A stretch of 64,000 nucleotides of DNA from Hamiltosporidium tvaerminnensis (taxonomy: Eukaryota; Microsporidia; Dubosqiidae). A program made the position numbers and the translations under genes. Under the pieces are notes generated by a model. That model did no database searches. It was not told the origin of the DNA and saw only the letters and a program-made list of their open reading frames with translations. The DNA lies in assembly GCA_022605425.2 (NCBI GenBank), contig JAKIMF020000001.1, positions 250,501-314,500 on the forward strand, read 5' to 3'. Below are positions 2-9,300 of the stretch, piece after piece; the first letter of the stretch is position 1, and each line of letters begins with the position of its first letter.

Positions 2-3000
2 AACCGTAGTGATAACACCCCTTTAACTAACAATACTAATAATTGTAGTAATAACACCCCTTTAATCACCCCTTTAATCAACACTATCTCTACTTACCTC
101 CTTATATCTAATACCCTGTTACTTACTAACCATTTACTTAATACTTATAACACCCTTAAGAATAGACATTCCTTTCTATTAACAGGTGTTAATAAGATAC
201 TTTTATTTAAAGAAGAAGTAAATAATTTAAATATTTTATTAAAAGAGAAATGTTTAAGATTATCACAATTAAAGGTAGAAAGTACTAACAATATAACAGA
301 TTTAATAAATGAAAAAGAAAAAGTAAATAACACTATAAAAGAGATAATTAGTGTTAATAAAGATATAAAGAATAACATATGTTATTCTTTAAGTAAAAGA
401 AAAGTAATAAGTAAAGAAATAAAGGGTGTTAAAGATAATATAGATAGTGTTATTAGAGATATAAAGGGTGTTGATAAGAAGAGTGTTAGTGAGTTAAAGA
501 GTATGAATAACCCACCTTTAGTTATTAAGAAGGTACTTAGTGGGGTAGTGGGGGTATTGGAGGGGGATAGTAGTATGATGGAGGGTTATAGTATGATGAT
601 GGAGGGTGATAAGGGTTATAGTAGTAGTAGTATGATGGAGGGTGTTAAGGGAAGTAGGGATAGTAGTATGATTGAGGGTTATAGTAGTATGATGGAGGGT
701 GTTAAGGGAAGTAGGGATAGTAGTATGATTGAGGGTTATAGTAGTATGATGGAGGGTGTTAAGGGTAGTAGTATGATGAAGGGTGTTAAGGGTTATAGTA
801 TGATGGAGGGTGTTAAGGGAAGTAGGGATAGTAGTATGATGGAGGGTGTTAAGGGAAGTAGGGATAGTAGAGAGGATGATAAGGGTGTTAAGGGAAGTAG
901 GGATAGTAGTATGATGGAGGGTTTTGAGGGAAGTAGGGATATAAAGGGTCTTAGTGAAGTTTATGATAAACAACAGGGTGTTAATGACAGTATTACTAAT
1001 ATAAAGGGTGTTAGTAAAAGTACTATTAAACAACAGGGTGTTAACATAAGTACTAATAAACAACGGGGTGTTAAGAGTAGAGAGTGGAGGGAGGTTATTA
1101 GTATAGTGAGAAGAGAGGATTTTATAGCAAGGATAGTAAATTATAGGGATTTATTAGAAGATGGATTAGAAGAGGGTGATATGTTAGAAGATGGATTAGA
1201 AGAGGAATTAGAGGGTGTTAGTGATAAGGATATATTGGAGGGTGTTAGTGATAGTAGTATGTTAGAGGGTGTTAGTGATAGTAGTATGTTAGAGGGTGTT
1301 AGTGATAGTAGTATGTTAGAGGGTGTTAGTGATAGTAGTATGTTAGAGGGTGTTAATGTCAATACTGATAATAACACCCCTTTAACTAACAATAGTAATA
1401 ACACCCCTTTAACTAACAATACCACTAACACCCCTTTAACAAACAATACCACTAACAATACCACTAATACCACTAACACCCCTTTAACTAACAATACCAC
1501 TAACACCACTAATACCACTAACACCCCTTTAACAAACAATACCACTAACAATACCACTAATACCACTAACACCCCTTTAACAAATAACCCCTTTACCCCT
1601 CTTATCCCTCTTGCTTATAAGGCTTCTACTGCTTGTGGTCCTTTATGTAAGTGGCTTTCTTCTACATTAGATTATATACAAATAACAAGTAAATTAAAAC
1701 CTTTTATAAAAGAACTTAAGAATATTAATAATAGTATTATTAATAATAAAAGGGTGTTAAATAATAAACAAGAGTGTCTTAAATTAAAAGAAGAAAAGGT
1801 TTTACAACTTAAAGAGGAATTAAGAGTTAAGAGTTGTAGTGTTATAACGTATGAGAAGGAAATGGAAGAAATAAAGGGTAGGATGTGTGTTATGGAGGAG
1901 TGTATAGGTGTTATGGAAGAGGAAGTAGGGAGATGGAGTGTAGAGATAGGATGTGTTAGAGATAAGGGGGGTAGTAATAGTAGTAGGGATAGGGGTAGTG
2001 TATTAGAGGGTGTTAATAACAGTATTGATGATTATAAGTGTAATAGTAGTAGGGATATGTTAGAGGGTAATAGTAGTAGGGATATGTTAGAGGGTAATAG
2101 TAGGGATATGTTAGAGGCTTTTATTAATAAGGATGGTAGTAGAGAGGGTGTTAATAATATGGAGTATGATTATAAGGGTGTTAGTAATAAAGACAGTAGT
2201 AGTGGTAATGAACAAAGGGGCTTTAACAACATCACTAATAATTATCACCCTCTTAACAACAGTACTAATAATTATCACCCTCTTAACAACAGTACTAATA
2301 ATTATCACCCTCTTAACAACAGTACTAATAACTATCACCCCTTTAATAACAGTACTACTGATATTAATATACCTTATCTTACTAACCTTTTAAATCTTCT
2401 TAATAATAACACTTATATGGATAATAGTGTTATTTCTTATATAAGAAATACTTATTATAAATTAAGAGGTGTTAGTAATATTAATACTAATGATTTAAAT
2501 ATTTTATTAGAAAATAAAAGGGTTATATATATATATGATAAAGAGGGTGTTATTACAAAGGAAGTAACAAGGAATAATAAGAAGATGAGGTGTAGTGTTA
2601 TTGGTAAGGGTAATAGTAGTGGGGGTATTAGTACTTATAGTGTTAGTAATAACTATAGTGGTAACACCCCTTTAGGTAGTAGTAATAATGATTATTGTGG
2701 TAACACCCCTTTAGGTAGTAGTAATAATGATTATTGTGGTAACACCCCTTTAGGTAGTAATAATAATAACTATAGTGGTAACACCCCTTTAGGTAGTAAT
2801 AATAATAACTATAGTGGTAACACCCCTTTAGGTAGTAATAATAATAACTATAGTGTTAACACCCCTTTAGGTAGTAGTAATAACTATAGTGTTAACACCC
2901 CTTTAGGTAGTAATAATAATAACTATAGTGTTAACACCCCTTTAGGTAGTAGTAATAACTATAGTGGTAACACCCCTTTAGGTAGTAGTAATAATGATTA

Positions 3001-6000
3001 TTGTGGTAACACCCCTTTAGGTAGTAGTAATAATGATTATTGTGGTAACACCCCCTTATCTAATATCCTTCATATTCTTAATACCTTTCTTGTTACTTCT
3101 ATGGATAATAACAACTATTTAACAGTAATTAACACTGCTATGTTACATAATATAGATATAATAATAACAGGGTGTTATTATTACTGTCCTTATATTTATT
3201 CACTTATAAAATATCAAATGACTGTAAAAGGTTTTAATGTTATTTTAATAGGAAAAGATAAAGAAGGGTGTTATGAAGGTATTTATAATATTATATATGA
3301 AGAGGGTGTTAGTGATTGTATAAGAGAAGTAATAAGTGAGGTATATAAAGGGGTGGATATAATAGAGAATATGTTAGAGAAGGGTGTTAGAGGCAGTAGG
3401 GATATTTTAGAGAAGGGTGTTAATGATAAGGATATGTTAGAGGGTAATGTAAAGGGTGTTAATGATAAGGATGATTTTAAAGAGGGTGTTAGTAACAGAT
3501 CAGATAAACAACAGGGTCTTAATGACAGTCCTAATACTTTACACCCTGTTAATGAACGTACTTATAAACAACAGGGTCTTAATAACAGTATATCTAATAT
3601 GAATACCTTTAACAATCTATCTACTATCAATACCTTTAACAATCTATCTACTATCAATACCTTTAATACCTCTGAGTCTTCTTTATTATCAGGTGTTATT
3701 TCTTTAGAAAATAACCTTTTATCTTTAATAAGTAATAATAATATGGAAATAAAAGGTGTTAAATCTATAATAGAGTGTAAGAGGGTGTTAGATATTAAAA
3801 GAAAAGAATTTAAAGAATTAAAGGATAGAAATAAAGAAATAAGAGATATTGAAAATAACATATGTTACTTATATGAAAGTATAAGAAAGTCTTATTATAG
3901 TAAATATAAGGTATATTTAAGTAATAAAGTATTTAAAGGGGTATTAAGATATATAATAAAGGGGGTAATAAAAGGTTTTAGTGAAAGGGTGTTATTAGAG
4001 GGTGTTAGTGAAAGGGAGTTATTAGAGGGTGTTAATGATAGGGAGTTATTGGAGGGTAATTTTGATAGGGAGTTATCTGAGGGTGTTAGTCATAGGGAGT
4101 TATTAGAGGGTGTTAATGAAAGGGAGTTATTAGAGGGTGTTAGTGATAGGGAGTTATTGGTGGGTGTTAATGAAAGGGAGTTATTAGAGGGTGTTAATGA
4201 AAGGGAGTTATTAGAGGGTGTTAGTCATAGGGAGTTATTAGAGGGTGTTAATGAAAGGGTGTTATTAGAGGGTGTTAATGAAAGGGAGTTATTAGAGGGT
4301 GTTAGTGATAGGGAGTTATTGGTGGGTGTTAATGAAAGGGAGTTATTGGAGGGTGTTAATGAAAGGGAGTTATTAGAGGGTGTTAGTCATAGGGAGTTAT
4401 TGGAGGGTGTTAATGATAAGAGTAGTAGTAGAGAGGGTGTTATCAACAGCACTGATAGATTAGAGGGTGTTAGTAAGAGTACTGATAGATTAGAGGGTGT
4501 TAGCAACAGTACTAATGAACAACACCCTGTTAGTAATAATACTACACAACACCCTGTTAATAACAATACTACACAACACCCTGTTAATAACAATACTACA
4601 CAACACCCTGTTAACACTAACCTAAATACTACTATAGCTAACACCCTCTTATCTTTCTATTCTTACTCTTATATGCCTGTTGATAGACAAAGGGTGTTAA
4701 ATTATAAAGAATTGAGAAATGAAATATTAAATATAGAATTACCTTTTAATTACCTGTTAATTAACTTAGATGTAACATTATTAAAATTAAAATGTGTTAG
4801 TGTTAGTTGTGGTAGTGAAGAGAATAATAAAAGGGTGTTAGATACTATAAATAGAGAGAGTATTTGTATTATTAAGAATGTACAGTTTATGCCAGAACTT
4901 AAGGATATGTGTAGTAATTATAGGGGTGTTAATTATAGTAGGGAGGTAGTAGGGGGTGGTAGTAGGGATATATTAGAGGGTGTTAATTATAAAGGTAGTG
5001 TATTAGAGGGTGTTAACAATAGTAGGGAGGTATTAGAGGGTGTTAATTATAAAGGTATTGTAGTAGGGGGTGTTAATTATAAAGATAGTGGATTAAAGGG
5101 TGTTAACAATAGTAGGGAGGTATTAGAGGGTGTTGGTTCTAGTACTAGCAAACAAGACCCTATTAATAGTAAGACTTACAAACAATACCCTTTTATTAGT
5201 AGTACTTATAAACAAGACCCTTTTAATAACACTACTAATAATTATCACCCTGTTAATAAGAGTACTAAACAACACCCCTTTAAAAGAGTCATTTACTGTA
5301 TGGAAGGTAACACACAACACTCTCTTATGGAGGATTGTAGAATAATTTATGGTGAACAAGAATATTCTTATAATAACATATATAAGACATATAGAGATAT
5401 AATAAGGGAAGAGGGTGTTAGTAATAGAAGTAAGGGATTAGAGAGGGGTGTTAGTAATAGAAGTAAGGGATTAGAGAGGGGTGTTAGTAATAGAAGTAAG
5501 GGATTAGAGAGGGGTGTTAGTAATAGAAGTAAGGGATTAGAGAGGGGTGTTAGTATAGTAGAGGGTAGAGAGGGGGGTGTTAATAGTAAGAAGAAGGGTG
5601 TTAGTAATGCAAGTATACGAGAAGGGGGTGTTAATATAGTAGAGGGTAAGAATAGGGGTGTTAATAGTAAGAAGAAGGGTGTTAGTAACAGTAATAAGTA
5701 TAAGGGTAGTAGATATAGGGGTGTTAATTATAAGACATTATCTATAAGAGGTGTTAATGATAAATCATTCTCTATAACACCCCTTAGTAATACATCTCCT
5801 CATATAACACCTCTTAGTAATACATTTCCTCATATAACACCTGTTAAAACTAAATCATTCTCTATAACACCCCTTATTAAGACATCTCCCCATATAACAT
5901 CTGTTAAAACCAAATCATACTCTATAACACCTGTTAGTAATACATCTCCTTATATAACACCTCTTAACACTAAATCATACTCTATAACACCTGTTAATAC

Positions 6001-7417
6001 TACTACCCTTTATTCTATACTTAAGTATTCCTTTATATATTCTTTAGAAATAAGATGTGTTATTTTACATTCTTATATATGTTATATCTCTTGTTATATT
6101 CCTTATACTTTAAGTTTTAATTATGAATGGTCTTTAAAAGATTTATTGTTATTTATAAGGTGTTGTAAGTATATGACATTTAAAGAGAGTATAGGTGTTG
6201 TGTATGGTAGTAGGTTAAGTTATAAAGAGGTTATTTGTATAGAAATAGTAGGTGATATAATAAAGGGGGGTGTTAGTAGTATGGATATAGTAGAGGAGGG
6301 TGTTAGTAGTAAGGATATAGTAGAGGGTGTTAGTAATAAGGATATAGTAGAGGAGGGTGTTAGTAGTATGGATATAGTAGAGGAGGGTGTTAGTTATAAG
6401 GATATAGTAGAGGGTGTTAGTTATAAGGATATAGTAGAGGGTGTTAGTAGTATGGATATAGTAGAGGAGGGTGTTAGTAGTATGGATATAGTAGAGTGTG
6501 TTAACAATAGTAGGGATATTAAGGAGGGGGGTGTTAGTAAAGGTAGTATGTTAGAGGGTGTTAGTAGTATGGATATAGTAGAGGGTGTTAACAATAGTAG
6601 GGATATTAAGGAGGGGGGTGTTAGTAAAGGTAGTATGTTAGAGGGTGTTAGTAGTATGGATATAGTAGAGGGTGTTAACAATAGTAGGGATATTAAGGAG
6701 GGGGGTGTTAGTTATAAGGATATAGTAGAGGGTGTTAGTAAAGGTACTAGTAATTATAAGGGTGTTATTAACAGTACTAATAAACAACACCCTGTTAACA
6801 ATATTACTGATACTTATCACCCTCTTAACGACAGTACTGATACTTATCACCCTGTTAACAACAGTACTGATAATACCCCCTCTTATACCTGGTTATTTAC
6901 TTACTATGATATTCTTAAGGATAAATTAAAAGGTAAAGAATATGAAATTATAAATAACAAGGAAATTACAAGTAAGAATAAGAAGGATAACAAGGATACT
7001 AACAAGGGATTGGATAGTCACGATATTAACAAGGGATTTATTAACAAGGAACTTACAAGTAAGTCTAACAAGGATACTAACAAGGATAACAAGGGACTCA
7101 TTAACAAGGAACTTACAAGTAATTATAACAAGGATATCAATGGATTCATTAACAAGGAACTTACTAGTAATGATATTAACAATCAATCTTGTAAATTATC
7201 ACCCTTTAGTATTAAGGTAAGATTCTATAAAGCTATAGTAGTAGAAGAGGGTGTTAATTATAGTAATATTGATAATGTATGTTATTTACTTATTAAAGAG
7301 GTTAATAGTAGTAATAAGAAGGAATGGGTTTGGGTTGTTAATAAAGGGGTGATAGATAAGGTATATGTAAGTAGTATAAAGGGGTGTTATTATAGTGTAG
7401 TGGGTGAAGTATTATAG
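2..7417 (+). CDS. DYN1: Cytoplasmic dynein heavy chain, C-terminal motor part, 5' end outside window, repeat-expanded
   Basis: Minus-end-directed microtubule motor. The frame is open from base 2 to the TAG/TAA-free end at 7417 (2471 codons), so the ATG at 503 is internal and the gene starts left of the window. Family landmarks appear in the right order, numbered from base 2. They are: stalk helix CC1 (about 40-167); start of the microtubule-binding domain, SMNNPPLVIKKVL (167-179); its middle, WREVISIVRREDFIARIVNY (362-381); its end, KASTACGPLCKW (540-551); CC2, ending EEEVGRWSVEI (639-649); AAA5, NDLNILLENKRVIYIYDKEG (about 820-840) and about 1038-1110; inter-AAA helices (1227-1327); AAA6, SVSCGSEENNKRVLDTI then IIKNVQFMPEL (1600-1640), CMEGNTQHSLMEDCRIIYGE (about 1766-1785) and ESIGVVYGSRL (about 2062-2072); C-terminal strand region (2397-2465). 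Repeat blocks separate these islands and add about 1000 residues. No P-loop is expected in AAA5/6. The assignment is from recalled family motifs. Confidence 0.88.
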   Translation, partial: NRSDNTPLTNNTNNCSNNTPLITPLINTISTYLLISNTLLLTNHLLNTYNTLKNRHSFLLTGVNKILLFKEEVNNLNILLKEKCLRLSQLKVESTNNITDLINEKEKVNNTIKEIISVNKDIKNNICYSLSKRKVISKEIKGVKDNIDSVIRDIKGVDKKSVSELKSMNNPPLVIKKVLSGVVGVLEGDSSMMEGYSMMMEGDKGYSSSSMMEGVKGSRDSSMIEGYSSMMEGVKGSRDSSMIEGYSSMMEGVKGSSMMKGVKGYSMMEGVKGSRDSSMMEGVKGSRDSREDDKGVKGSRDSSMMEGFEGSRDIKGLSEVYDKQQGVNDSITNIKGVSKSTIKQQGVNISTNKQRGVKSREWREVISIVRREDFIARIVNYRDLLEDGLEEGDMLEDGLEEELEGVSDKDILEGVSDSSMLEGVSDSSMLEGVSDSSMLEGVSDSSMLEGVNVNTDNNTPLTNNSNNTPLTNNTTNTPLTNNTTNNTTNTTNTPLTNNTTNTTNTTNTPLTNNTTNNTTNTTNTPLTNNPFTPLIPLAYKASTACGPLCKWLSSTLDYIQITSKLKPFIKELKNINNSIINNKRVLNNKQECLKLKEEKVLQLKEELRVKSCSVITYEKEMEEIKGRMCVMEECIGVMEEEVGRWSVEIGCVRDKGGSNSSRDRGSVLEGVNNSIDDYKCNSSRDMLEGNSSRDMLEGNSRDMLEAFINKDGSREGVNNMEYDYKGVSNKDSSSGNEQRGFNNITNNYHPLNNSTNNYHPLNNSTNNYHPLNNSTNNYHPFNNSTTDINIPYLTNLLNLLNNNTYMDNSVISYIRNTYYKLRGVSNINTNDLNILLENKRVIYIYDKEGVITKEVTRNNKKMRCSVIGKGNSSGGISTYSVSNNYSGNTPLGSSNNDYCGNTPLGSSNNDYCGNTPLGSNNNNYSGNTPLGSNNNNYSGNTPLGSNNNNYSVNTPLGSSNNYSVNTPLGSNNNNYSVNTPLGSSNNYSGNTPLGSSNNDYCGNTPLGSSNNDYCGNTPLSNILHILNTFLVTSMDNNNYLTVINTAMLHNIDIIITGCYYYCPYIYSLIKYQMTVKGFNVILIGKDKEGCYEGIYNIIYEEGVSDCIREVISEVYKGVDIIENMLEKGVRGSRDILEKGVNDKDMLEGNVKGVNDKDDFKEGVSNRSDKQQGLNDSPNTLHPVNERTYKQQGLNNSISNMNTFNNLSTINTFNNLSTINTFNTSESSLLSGVISLENNLLSLISNNNMEIKGVKSIIECKRVLDIKRKEFKELKDRNKEIRDIENNICYLYESIRKSYYSKYKVYLSNKVFKGVLRYIIKGVIKGFSERVLLEGVSERELLEGVNDRELLEGNFDRELSEGVSHRELLEGVNERELLEGVSDRELLVGVNERELLEGVNERELLEGVSHRELLEGVNERVLLEGVNERELLEGVSDRELLVGVNERELLEGVNERELLEGVSHRELLEGVNDKSSSREGVINSTDRLEGVSKSTDRLEGVSNSTNEQHPVSNNTTQHPVNNNTTQHPVNNNTTQHPVNTNLNTTIANTLLSFYSYSYMPVDRQRVLNYKELRNEILNIELPFNYLLINLDVTLLKLKCVSVSCGSEENNKRVLDTINRESICIIKNVQFMPELKDMCSNYRGVNYSREVVGGGSRDILEGVNYKGSVLEGVNNSREVLEGVNYKGIVVGGVNYKDSGLKGVNNSREVLEGVGSSTSKQDPINSKTYKQYPFISSTYKQDPFNNTTNNYHPVNKSTKQHPFKRVIYCMEGNTQHSLMEDCRIIYGEQEYSYNNIYKTYRDIIREEGVSNRSKGLERGVSNRSKGLERGVSNRSKGLERGVSNRSKGLERGVSIVEGREGGVNSKKKGVSNASIREGGVNIVEGKNRGVNSKKKGVSNSNKYKGSRYRGVNYKTLSIRGVNDKSFSITPLSNTSPHITPLSNTFPHITPVKTKSFSITPLIKTSPHITSVKTKSYSITPVSNTSPYITPLNTKSYSITPVNTTTLYSILKYSFIYSLEIRCVILHSYICYISCYIPYTLSFNYEWSLKDLLLFIRCCKYMTFKESIGVVYGSRLSYKEVICIEIVGDIIKGGVSSMDIVEEGVSSKDIVEGVSNKDIVEEGVSSMDIVEEGVSYKDIVEGVSYKDIVEGVSSMDIVEEGVSSMDIVECVNNSRDIKEGGVSKGSMLEGVSSMDIVEGVNNSRDIKEGGVSKGSMLEGVSSMDIVEGVNNSRDIKEGGVSYKDIVEGVSKGTSNYKGVINSTNKQHPVNNITDTYHPLNDSTDTYHPVNNSTDNTPSYTWLFTYYDILKDKLKGKEYEIINNKEITSKNKKDNKDTNKGLDSHDINKGFINKELTSKSNKDTNKDNKGLINKELTSNYNKDINGFINKELTSNDINNQSCKLSPFSIKVRFYKAIVVEEGVNYSNIDNVCYLLIKEVNSSNKKEWVWVVNKGVIDKVYVSSIKGCYYSVVGEVL
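560..1060 (+). repeat. Repeat block 1 inside the dynein microtubule-binding domain
   Basis: Tandem units of GGGTGTTAAGGGAAGTAGGG and relatives, encoding MEGVKGSRDSS-type peptides. They separate the first helix of the microtubule-binding domain (SMNNPPLVIKK) from the conserved segment around REDFIARIVNY. The frame stays open throughout. Confidence 0.9.
1215..1600 (+). repeat. Repeat block 2 inside the dynein microtubule-binding domain, strand-switched
   Basis: About five 27-bp units (peptide EGVSDSSML) carry the word as AGGGTGTTA. From about 1370 the word flips to TAACACCCC, giving NTPLTNN peptides with AATACCACT spacers. The block sits between the REDFIARIVNY segment and the KASTACGPLCKW end of the domain. 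Sense and antisense copies are adjacent in one exon. Confidence 0.9.
1960..2365 (+). repeat. Repeat block 3 between dynein stalk and AAA5
   Basis: Short sense units (LEGNSSRDM) are followed by about four 30-bp antisense units encoding YHPLNNSTNN. Here the word is read in the frame where TAA would be a stop codon, and its first triplet is TAT instead. Confidence 0.85.
2635..3065 (+). repeat. Repeat block 4 within AAA5, 36-39-bp NTPLG units
   Basis: About eleven tandem units of GGTAACACCCCTTTAGGTAG followed by AATAATNNTTATTGTGGT-like spacers, encoding NTPLGSSNNDYCG and close variants. It splits the AAA5 module between its two conserved islands. Confidence 0.9.
3340..3680 (+). repeat. Repeat block 5 between AAA5 and the AAA5-AAA6 helices
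   Basis: Irregular EGVND and KQQGLN units on the sense word are followed by three NTFNNLSTI units of about 27 bp. It is less regular than the other blocks, suggesting an older expansion. Confidence 0.75.
3980..4620 (+). repeat. Repeat block 6 before AAA6, 27-bp RELLEGVNE units
   Basis: About sixteen 27-bp units GAAAGGGAGTTATTAGAGGG plus TGTTAAT, encoding RELLEGV[NS][ED/H]. Antisense QHPVNNNT units (CAACACCCTGTTAATAAC) end the block. Near-identical units indicate recent slippage or unequal exchange. Confidence 0.9.
4920..5280 (+). repeat. Repeat block 7 inside AAA6
   Basis: Sense units encoding SREVLEGVNYKG give way to antisense-type units with STYKQDPFN peptides. It separates the KNVQFMPEL island from the CMEGNTQHSLMEDCRIIYGE island of AAA6. 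Confidence 0.8.
5405..6000 (+). repeat. Repeat block 8 inside AAA6, sense then antisense units
   Basis: Four exact 33-bp units encode NRSKGLERGVS, followed by SKKKGVS units. Then come antisense units in yet another frame (ATAACACCCCTTAGTAAT, encoding ITPLSNTSPH). This is the ITPL frame, distinct from the NTPL frame of block 4. Confidence 0.85.
6265..6870 (+). repeat. Repeat block 9 between AAA6 and the dynein C-terminal domain
   Basis: Many SSMDIVEEGV and NNSRDIKEGGV units are arranged in a higher-order repeat of about 114 bp (clear at 6495-6710). The block ends in antisense HPVNNSTD units. Confidence 0.88.
6960..7165 (+). repeat. Lys/Asn-rich repeat NKELTSN in the dynein C-terminal domain
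   Basis: Four to five variable units with the core ATTAACAAGGAACTTACAAG encode INKELTS plus NKDTNKD spacers. It lacks the AGGGTGTTA word, so it is a different repeat type from blocks 1-9. Confidence 0.75.
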
Positions 7418-7830
7418 GAGTAGTAGTAGGGAATAAAGGGTGTTATTGTATTTAGGAGTAGTAGTGATAAGAGGGTGTTATAGTATATTAGGAGTAGTAG
7501 TAGTGATAAGAGGGTGTTATAGTATTAAGGAGTAGGAGTTGGGAATAAAGGGTGTTATGGTATTATAGGAGTAGTGGTAGTAGTAGGGAATAAAGGGTTT
7601 TATAGTATTATAGGAGTAGTAGTAGTAGTAGGGAATAAAGGGTTTTATAGTATTATAGGAGTAGTAGTAGTAGTAGCAGGGATAAGAGGGTTTTATTGTA
7701 GTAGTGATTAGTAGTAGGTATAAGAGGGTGTTATAGTACTAGGGAATAGCACTAGGAAGTAGAAGGTGTTAACTATTAGTTTGGTATAATAGGGTGTTAG
7801 GTATATAAATAGGTGTTAATGTTCCTTAGT
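7418..7830 (+). repeat. Non-coding continuation of the GGGTGTTA array after the dynein stop codon
   Basis: Units of GGAGTAGTAGTAGGGAATAA plus AGGGTGTTAT recur about every 50-60 bp, with AGGGTTTTAT variants. TAG and TAA stops occur in every unit, so this part cannot be translated. The word therefore persists without coding constraint. Confidence 0.9.
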
Positions 7831-7931: not shown

Positions 7932-9300
7932 TAGGGTTTTTCGATCAATATAATAATTATTTTGAAAAAAAAATTCATTCATAATAAAATTTACTCCTAT
8001 GTCAAATTCTTTTTCAGGTAAAAATACCAACGAGGACAAATATGATTTTCATGTAATGTGAAACACCGGAATGTATAGAGTGCTAAAATTACAATGTTTT
8101 GAAGTGTCTTGTGTAAAAATCTGGATCACATGATAAAAATCTCCCATTATCCACCATTCCAACTCTGAGGAAACAAATGGTTTCTATTAATGATCGGGAA
8201 TGCATAATTGAAAAAAACATTAGAAGGCTATTCTATGTCCGCAATTTCCTCTAATTATCGAATAAATTACCAGACGGCTAATAGTATCGTTAGACGATAT
8301 CTAAAAACCGGCTTAGGTATTTGTCGAGAAAAGAGGTGGTGATAGGGCGATCAAAGTTAACTTTGGAAATAAAAGAGAGCTTACAAACCTATGGAAATTT
8401 TGAGCGTAAAAAACCCTCTATGAGTTGGCAGAATGGGTTAAATGTACATTTTATGTTGATGTGTCAACTAGTACAATTGATCGCGCACTAAGGGAGTTAC
8501 ATTACACTCTAAAGCGTGTAACATTAGTGCCTGAGCGTAGAAATACACTTTCGACAATTGAGCTAAGAACCAATTACGCAACTAGTTTTCGTGAGTTGGA
8601 GGTTGATAACGATGACAAAAACTTTGTCTTTTTAGATGAAGTTGGGTTCGCAGTAGTAACACGCCCCAGTAGAGGTCGTAATATGAGAAGTGAATCTGCA
8701 TACTTATCTGCAACAGCAGCCCGAAGTAGAAATATTTCAGAAGTGTCGGCAATGAACAAATATGGTATGATATACCATAAGATTCATGAGAGGGCCATAA
8801 ATGATGAGGATTTCAAATTATTCTTTAAGGATATTCATTTAAGTTGTCAACGGCAAGGAATTTTGACTTCAATATTAGTAATGGACAATGCGAGAATTCA
8901 TCACTATCAGGGATTGAATGATGATGAGGAATTTTCTCGTATCGAATAAAATATCTTCCACTTTACTCTCCATTTCTTAATCCAATTGAGAATATATTCT
9001 CAGTCTGAAAAAATAGAGTAATTCGAGGTGGTGCTCGTACTGAGTCTCAGTTGAGAATATTAATTTGTGAAAAATTTAATGAGATCACGGGAGAACATTG
9101 TAGTTCTTTTTACCGTAAAATGTTAGGATATTTGCAAATGGCTGAAGTAGGGCAAGTGATTCTTGAATAATAAATCTCCAGTACTATTTATAATCAGTTT
9201 TTCAAATTTCTATTTTTCAAATTTTTATTTTATAAATTGTTTTTTTAAAAATGATTATTATATTTATTGCAATGATTATTATATTGATCGAAAAACCCTA
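7932..9300 (+). mobile_element. DD34E (IS630/Tc1/mariner-like) DNA transposon, decayed copy 1
   Basis: Terminal inverted repeats TAGGGTTTTTCGATCAATAT at the left end and its complement at 9281-9300, flanked by TA dinucleotides as expected for insertion at TA. The element is about 1.37 kb with one decayed transposase gene. It lies in an AGATATAAAT-rich repeat visible on both sides. A second copy in opposite orientation is at 38.66-40.20 kb. Confidence 0.88.
7999..9170 (+). pseudogene. DD34E transposase pseudogene, copy 1
   Basis: Starts MSNSFSGKNT like copy 2. The longest open stretch, from 8425, has an HTH-like segment (STSTIDRAL), the first catalytic Asp in FLDEVGF and the second in VMDNARIHHY. 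A two-base indel then creates TAA at 8947, and the third catalytic residue (NPIEN) follows in another frame near 8980. More frame breaks lie before 8425; for example, two extra bases near 8055 relative to copy 2. The family is the Tc1/mariner/IS630 superfamily. This copy cannot make an active enzyme. Confidence 0.88.

Follow-up and report, generated by a model that had tools for sequence, protein, structure and literature searches.

Chi and the DNA-uptake words are short DNA words that are over-represented in bacterial genomes. In the Rickettsia palindromic elements, which are long and inserted, one DNA element is read in several frames inside proteins. Hamiltosporidium tvaerminnensis is a parasite of water fleas. 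We analyzed a 64-kb stretch of its genome (the window; contig JAKIMF020000001.1, positions 250,501 to 314,500), in which the DNA word AGGGTGTTA recurs in the C-terminal part of a giant gene assigned to dynein heavy chain. In the same species, described as Octosporea bayeri, 14 conserved proteins carry in-frame inserts of 15–57 amino acids, which are retained in mRNA according to reverse-transcription PCR (Corradi et al. 2009, PMC2784321). The species and the in-frame inserts in conserved proteins are common to both cases; the section on the inserts in that paper describes no shared DNA word, whereas here single inserts in isoleucyl-tRNA synthetase (IleRS) reach 148 amino acids, and the word is also found outside inserts. 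The Ku-less 'jaculum' trypanosomatids are similarly parasites without classical end joining, and their many protein insertions were attributed to error-prone end joining (PMC6635534); the part of that report considered here mentions no common DNA word, and in H. tvaerminnensis the word also arises without a change of length. HIP1 of cyanobacteria is likewise a short DNA word strongly over-represented in the genome (PMC4390886). In contrast to HIP1, Chi, and the uptake words, the word described here belongs to a eukaryote, is confined to territories, and is not a perfect palindrome. The in-frame inserts of the species are known, and the frame-blind enrichment of a DNA word appears to be new; among the literature matches listed, which cover the subscription literature in part, no account names the word as a feature.

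Both strands of the window together contain 81 copies of AGGGTGTTA, compared with 0.41 expected from dinucleotide shuffles (none of 100 shuffles reached 81), and 79 of the copies lie within positions 148–7799. The open reading frame (ORF) 2..7417 contains 71 exact sense words, which use all three sense phases: 63 are read as xAG-GGT-GTT (EGV, KGV, or QGV type), six as AGG-GTG-TTA (RVL), and two as xxA-GGG-TGT-TAy (GCY). The complement TAACACCC is read as xxT-AAC-ACC-C (NTP or NTL type) in 21 of its 23 occurrences in the ORF, and as xTA-ACA-CCC (TP) in the other two; the exact 9-mer TAACACCCT is present twice, both times in the xxT-AAC-ACC-C phase. The sixth frame is impossible for the word, because TAA is a stop codon there. 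The original prediction that the word is used in nearly every frame and on both strands is thus confirmed, with strongly uneven use of five of the six frames. Neither is the word confined to this locus by duplication of one peptide unit, the outcome that would have counted against the prediction: in the whole genome (21,638,905 bases, 17 contigs) AGGGTGTTA is found 3,785 times (2014 + 1771), and the backward pattern 110 times (47 + 63). With one mismatch allowed, the counts are 11,194 for the word and 3,149 for the control. As had been proposed for checking, other genes of the species carry the word too, namely those of DNA topoisomerase II (identity E=9.3e-118), Prp8 (E=5.2e-14), phosphatidylinositol 4-kinase alpha (PI4K; E=2.4e-23), IleRS, and the 26S proteasome subunit Rpn1. 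CPSF160 is perhaps a further word-bearing gene, to judge from a weak match (E=0.0087).

The enrichment was compared with synonymous codon shuffles, which keep the protein and the codon usage, in a sample of 13 pieces that total 264 kb, or 1.2% of the genome. Apart from two, the pieces were chosen for holding or adjoining the window gene or listed words, and densities in the sample are not genome averages. ORFs containing N were left out, and a stop-to-stop frame of at least 150 amino acids was called word-rich if it held at least five GGTGTTA or TAACACC (20 of the 66 such frames). The second of two near-identical PI4K copies was dropped from the shuffle, shape, flank, array, spacing, per-phase, and trimmed codon-choice analyses, and kept in the word-clustering and untrimmed codon-choice counts. 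After stretches of word-rich ORFs sharing an 18-mer were masked, 13,318 codons were left. In these, no 8-mer is more enriched than GGGTGTTA (69 vs 8.4 in the shuffles), and its complement comes second (30 vs 2.1), which corresponds to approximately 8-fold sense and 14-fold antisense enrichment, spread over all five possible phases. GGGTGTTA ranks first among its 280 anagrams, the median count of which is 1, and is still first in a stricter shuffle within 40 codons (99 vs 34, strands pooled). In the latter shuffle, RGGTGTTA counts are 11 vs 7.6, 19 vs 3.3, and 77 vs 40.7 in the sense phases, and 14 vs 8.4 and 39 vs 9.2 in the antisense phases. Two of the five phases are weakly above the control: 11 vs 7.6 is weak (at least one of 200 shuffles reaches 11), and 14 vs 8.4 is modest (largest shuffle 13).

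Codon choice was counted in word-rich ORFs from which 60 codons were cut at each end. Of 15 RVL, 13 are spelt as AGGGTGTTA (0.32 expected); the word also spells GVL in 15 of 23 (0.18 expected), GCY in 14 of 15 (1.84), NTP in 49 of 57 (4.05), NTL in 34 of 76 (2.09), and ITP in 12 of 14 cases (1.84). The preference is weaker for EVL (2 of 10; 0.23 expected) and KVL (3 of 8; 0.18 expected). The untrimmed count, which includes frame-shifted ORF ends and the second PI4K copy, gives 20 of 24 for RVL and 16 of 17 for GCY; none of the four RVL in word-poor ORFs is spelt as the word. A force acting on DNA, not on proteins, appears to place or keep the word. The original prediction had invoked spread or retention at the DNA or RNA level instead of a protein motif, and the DNA level is borne out by the codon choice and by the codon-shuffled control, in which the word stays the top 8-mer and is enriched on both strands. 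That the word is not driven by a peptide holds for the off-frame and antisense words; it does not hold for the 63 sense copies in a single frame, where duplication of a peptide unit can suffice. Within this non-random sample, the word resembles Chi, the uptake words, and HIP1 in its both-strand excess beyond protein and codon composition.

Most one-off neighbours of the 8-mer are near background. Position 1 also takes A (61 vs 18.3), and positions 5, 6, and 8 show lesser excesses, so that the core can be written approximately as RGGTGTTA. In the frame that permits TAA, the consensus lengthens to TAAA[A/G]GGGTGTTA. The long form TAAARGGGTGTTA, a 13-bp consensus, has 907 copies genome-wide (5 for the control), and the nearly palindromic form TAACAGGGTGTTA has 146 (0 for the control). 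The sharp core with its tolerance of A, the extended consensus, and the enrichment in both orientations could all be explained by a motif of duplex DNA, recognised as a protein-binding or recombination signal, that selection would write into gene bodies where the protein allows. Such a recognised motif under weak selection is the main rival and a serious one, even if we consider it somewhat unlikely. No protein binding the word was identified, and a T-box search, in which no positive control matched, was uninformative. It seems rather doubtful that RGGTGTTA functions as a recognition word in eukaryotic duplex DNA, placed in many core genes in every stop-permitted frame as a counterpart of Chi, the uptake words, and HIP1; if it does, maintenance of the word would have reshaped dynein, Prp8, topoisomerase II, and IleRS.

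The prediction placed the word inside conserved islands, and off-frame words are indeed found in ungapped conserved columns of five proteins. The Rpn1 words, read as KRVL and IGVL, align to distant homologues without gaps (all five matches aligned). In the alignment of IleRS with 11 of the 120 proteins listed from 8,000 scored, four of the ten words, including both off-frame ones, occupy ungapped conserved columns, and the other six fall within, or border on, lineage-specific inserts; six of the eight main-frame words are in inserts. Columns gapped in at least 80% of the 11 homologues comprise 550 of the 1,572 IleRS residues, including the 29-residue N-terminal end. The alignments are also ungapped at the words of topoisomerase II (SGCYTQ; two residues beyond the word there is a gap of one residue), PI4K (SGRVLQS), and dynein AAA1 (FYGCYK). 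Because these columns are conserved and ungapped, the off-frame words probably arose in place, and in the alignments they look like separate, length-preserving origins, not like insertions or copies of long pieces. Whereas Rickettsia palindromic elements lengthen a protein relative to its homologues, the off-frame words tested replace bases and leave the protein length unchanged. Differently phased words have almost no common flank beyond the 13-bp consensus. The apparent independence of origins that these flanks imply, and near-synonymous placements at conserved sites such as GVL in IleRS, would suit the recognised duplex motif. A mobile micro-element, which had also been proposed and would here be about 13 bp long, could by insertion have dispersed the 907 copies of the long form; the ungapped columns contradict it at several off-frame words, the flanks give it no support, and 13 is not a multiple of three, so that we consider it highly improbable.

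Many main-frame copies of the word sit within tandem peptide arrays. Of the 293 tandem arrays in the sample, 86 have the word in their consensus; periods divisible by three are found in 79 of the word-bearing arrays and in 232 of the whole set. The word arrays are tandem in-frame units inside ORFs, as in coding minisatellites, a description that does not cover the off-frame island words. The commonest same-strand spacings of words in ORFs are 30 bases (175 of 503) and 27 bases (104 of 503). Spacings of 27–30 bases are also favoured outside ORFs (19 of 47 spacings of at most 130 bases), where no reading frame is known to demand them. Ordinary coding minisatellites, formed by tandem duplication of one G-V-N/S peptide unit and spread to other frames by later frameshifts, are sufficient for many main-frame copies, in agreement with the prevalence of one frame in the window ORF, with the share of arrays holding the word, and with the reported retention of in-frame inserts in mRNA of this species (PMC2784321). 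The same explanation is contradicted for the off-frame and antisense words: off-frame words stand in ungapped conserved columns, flanks are nearly unrelated, words are present outside ORFs, and the enrichment survives in DNA without a shared 18-mer. As a general account it is thus improbable.

The words are gathered in territories. In the sample, 745 of 804 GGTGTTA lie within 120 bases of another one. DNA outside ORFs, meaning outside frames of at least 150 amino acids and in part perhaps coding sequence broken by frame jumps, holds 44 words in 15,772 bp (2.79/kb) within 1 kb of word-rich ORFs, and 30 words in 120,204 bp (0.25/kb) elsewhere. The ORFs that are not word-rich contain 20 words in 48,618 bp (0.41/kb), a scarcity that speaks against the recognised duplex motif. 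In nine genes, the starts of which were set by eye, unique words become denser, from 0.74/kb over the initial 500 bases to 3–7/kb in most bins past 2 kb (one bin is at 1.2). An RNA-level signal in transcripts, either an RNA-binding site or pairing of the word with its complement, might produce this rise along the gene and the mostly sense orientation of the 8-mer in genes (412 + 47 vs 99 antisense). With the protein controlled for, however, the enrichment of the antisense word is at least as strong, which would not be expected of a single-strand signal, and an RNA-level origin is very unlikely. The coding-strand GC skew also changes along genes: in pooled unique DNA of nine word-rich genes, including dynein (contig C12, approximately 234,210–257,914) and genes of contig C1, it is -0.38 at the 5' end and rises to values of +0.1 to +0.43 further along, and single genes vary.

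The PI4K gene is present in two approximately 99% identical copies, in opposite orientation on one contig (L018, C1:1262001-1272000; L019, C1:1168001-1178000). Between the copies, one word array differs in length by 60 bases and another by 57, each approximately two units, and the words themselves show either point or clustered differences. Island words show no protection (3 differences per 158 bases, compared with 80 per 6,472), which, in the sole paralogue pair available, counts against a duplex motif kept by selection. The differences are clustered, with 14 neighbour pairs at most 10 bp apart compared with 3.4 at random (none of 2,000 permutations reached 14), and one of the two five-difference clusters lies on a word. 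Since the words are unprotected and the differences clustered, this one gene pair favours a mutational short-patch process over strong selection.

The reading we favour, tentatively and at somewhat below an even chance, is that short-patch copying or slippage maintains the word at the DNA level. RGGTGTTA, with its long form, would be a DNA-level word gathering in territories around long conserved genes of the microsporidium. Slippage or unequal exchange would lengthen the tandem arrays, and near-matches on any strand and in any frame may be overwritten by very short template switches for which existing copies of the word are the donors. Protein selection would then retain harmless placements and array lengths in multiples of three. 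The template switching is envisaged in a genome without a match to the Ku family, which is consistent with the loss of classical end joining reported for microsporidia (PMC6635534).

Several results weigh against short-patch copying. Three predictions of the model failed, those of flank likeness, of a family-A polymerase, and of array edges at words. The 12-bp flanks of differently phased words are barely more alike within 150 bp than between genes (for example, 0.406 vs 0.372 and 0.366 vs 0.316), so any copied patch would be very short; copying of long segments between words was rejected for the same reason. The genome search found no family-A polymerase, which we take to be the Pol theta class, and the same search detected family-B polymerases. 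Array edges show no preference for words: among 77 arrays, 28 starts and 19 ends fall at a word, compared with 26.6 expected. The Ku search found no match in the genome, and the only control that matched was a bacterium, the control genomes including no eukaryote. The scarcity of one-off neighbours means that neutral decay fits only with a recent burst, and the clustering of PI4K differences could stem from uneven constraint. Masking of shared 13-mers leaves GGGTGTTA at 4 vs 1.2; this mask removes most of the words themselves, and 18- and 24-mer masking was used instead. If a DNA-level force does rewrite conserved residues in all frames, the evolution of the parasite's proteins is partly steered by a DNA word, which would offer a handle on the origin of low-complexity inserts in parasite genomes and on repair and recombination in a lineage for which the loss of classical end joining has been reported.

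The open frame extending into the window begins 5,749 bases upstream, and earlier pieces of the gene, in other frames, extend up to about 14.7 kb upstream or more. The gene is full of in-frame repeats. The upstream AAA1 piece matches the dynein motor family PF12774 (E=7.2e-29) and the yeast cytoplasmic dynein structure (E=6.9e-26), and thus provides the AAA1 hydrolytic site domain of a dynein heavy chain. Among three further upstream pieces, one (AAA3-like) matches the dynein family PF12775 below the cut-off (E=6.4e-4). Six pieces scanned from the window have no dynein family match, their best match to any family being Fez1 (E=0.0015), and the Pfam scan of the whole window ORF gave a single, sub-threshold match to PMG (E=0.02). 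The window part is assigned to the dynein gene because its frame and order fit; by eye only, AAA2–AAA4 would lie upstream, and the stalk, AAA5, AAA6, and C-terminal parts in the window. The features of this region are listed in Table 1.

Table 1. Word copies, tandem arrays, and the host reading frame in the window.
Feature	Position	Strand	Remarks
C-terminal part of one open frame, assigned to giant dynein heavy chain gene	2..7417	+	From frame and order; identity from upstream AAA1 piece
Word, TAACACCCT	148..156	-	Antisense; read NTL
Tandem array, period 57	625..847	+	Word in unit, main frame EGV
Tandem array, period 27 x 5.5	1208..1355	+	Main-frame word LEGVSDSSM
Tandem array, period 48	1418..1584	+	Complementary word TAACACCCC read NTPL
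Off-frame word	1751..1759	+	Read RVL; in island that resembles, by eye only, the dynein stalk
Tandem array, period 39 x 10.7	2647..3058	+	Complementary word read GNTPLG / VNTPLG
Off-frame word	3169..3177	+	Read GCY (ITGCYYY); palindromic form TAACAGGGTGTTA at 3165-3177
Off-frame word	3265..3273	+	Read GCY (KEGCYEG)
Off-frame word	3782..3790	+	Read RVL (CKRVLDIK)
Tandem array	3974..4416	+	Main-frame words; off-frame RVL words at 3986 and 4256
Word	4639..4647	-	Antisense; read NTL
Off-frame word	4691..4699	+	Read RVL (DRQRVLNYK)
Off-frame word	4832..4840	+	Read RVL (NNKRVLDTI)
Post-stop stretch	7418..7799	+	Six words (7437, 7472, 7511, 7549, 7725, 7791)

Several of the large genes are split into overlapping frames: dynein upstream of the window, Prp8 (C1:853,000-865,000), the CPSF160-like gene (C1:557,000-564,000), and Rpn1 (C1:175,000-178,000). 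The Rpn1 gene piece is 96% identical to an H. tvaerminnensis protein in which the frame is continuous, and assembly indels or allelic differences are therefore likely in the split genes. A C-terminal Prp8-like piece with two GVL words has no match in the PDB. In the Prp8-like and helicase-like genes (for example L014, L015, and L012), another family of repeated peptides has a KCIN core (such as DKCINNLSR and NKCINTFNT) and suggests a further shared DNA word; the gene labels 'helicase' and 'coatomer' were assigned by eye only.

The word resembles the interstitial telomeric repeat TTAGGG and differs from it. The telomere of the genome is TTAGGG, as in the published H. tvaerminnensis genome (PMC10542269), and 12 of the 17 contig starts read as CCCTAA telomere. 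None of these 12 starts (1.5 kb each) contains the word, and one of the five non-telomeric starts holds three copies. A telomeric origin of the word was rejected on these grounds. Just downstream of the word-bearing region, at window positions 8425–8949, there is an ORF that by eye resembles a Tc1/mariner-type transposase.

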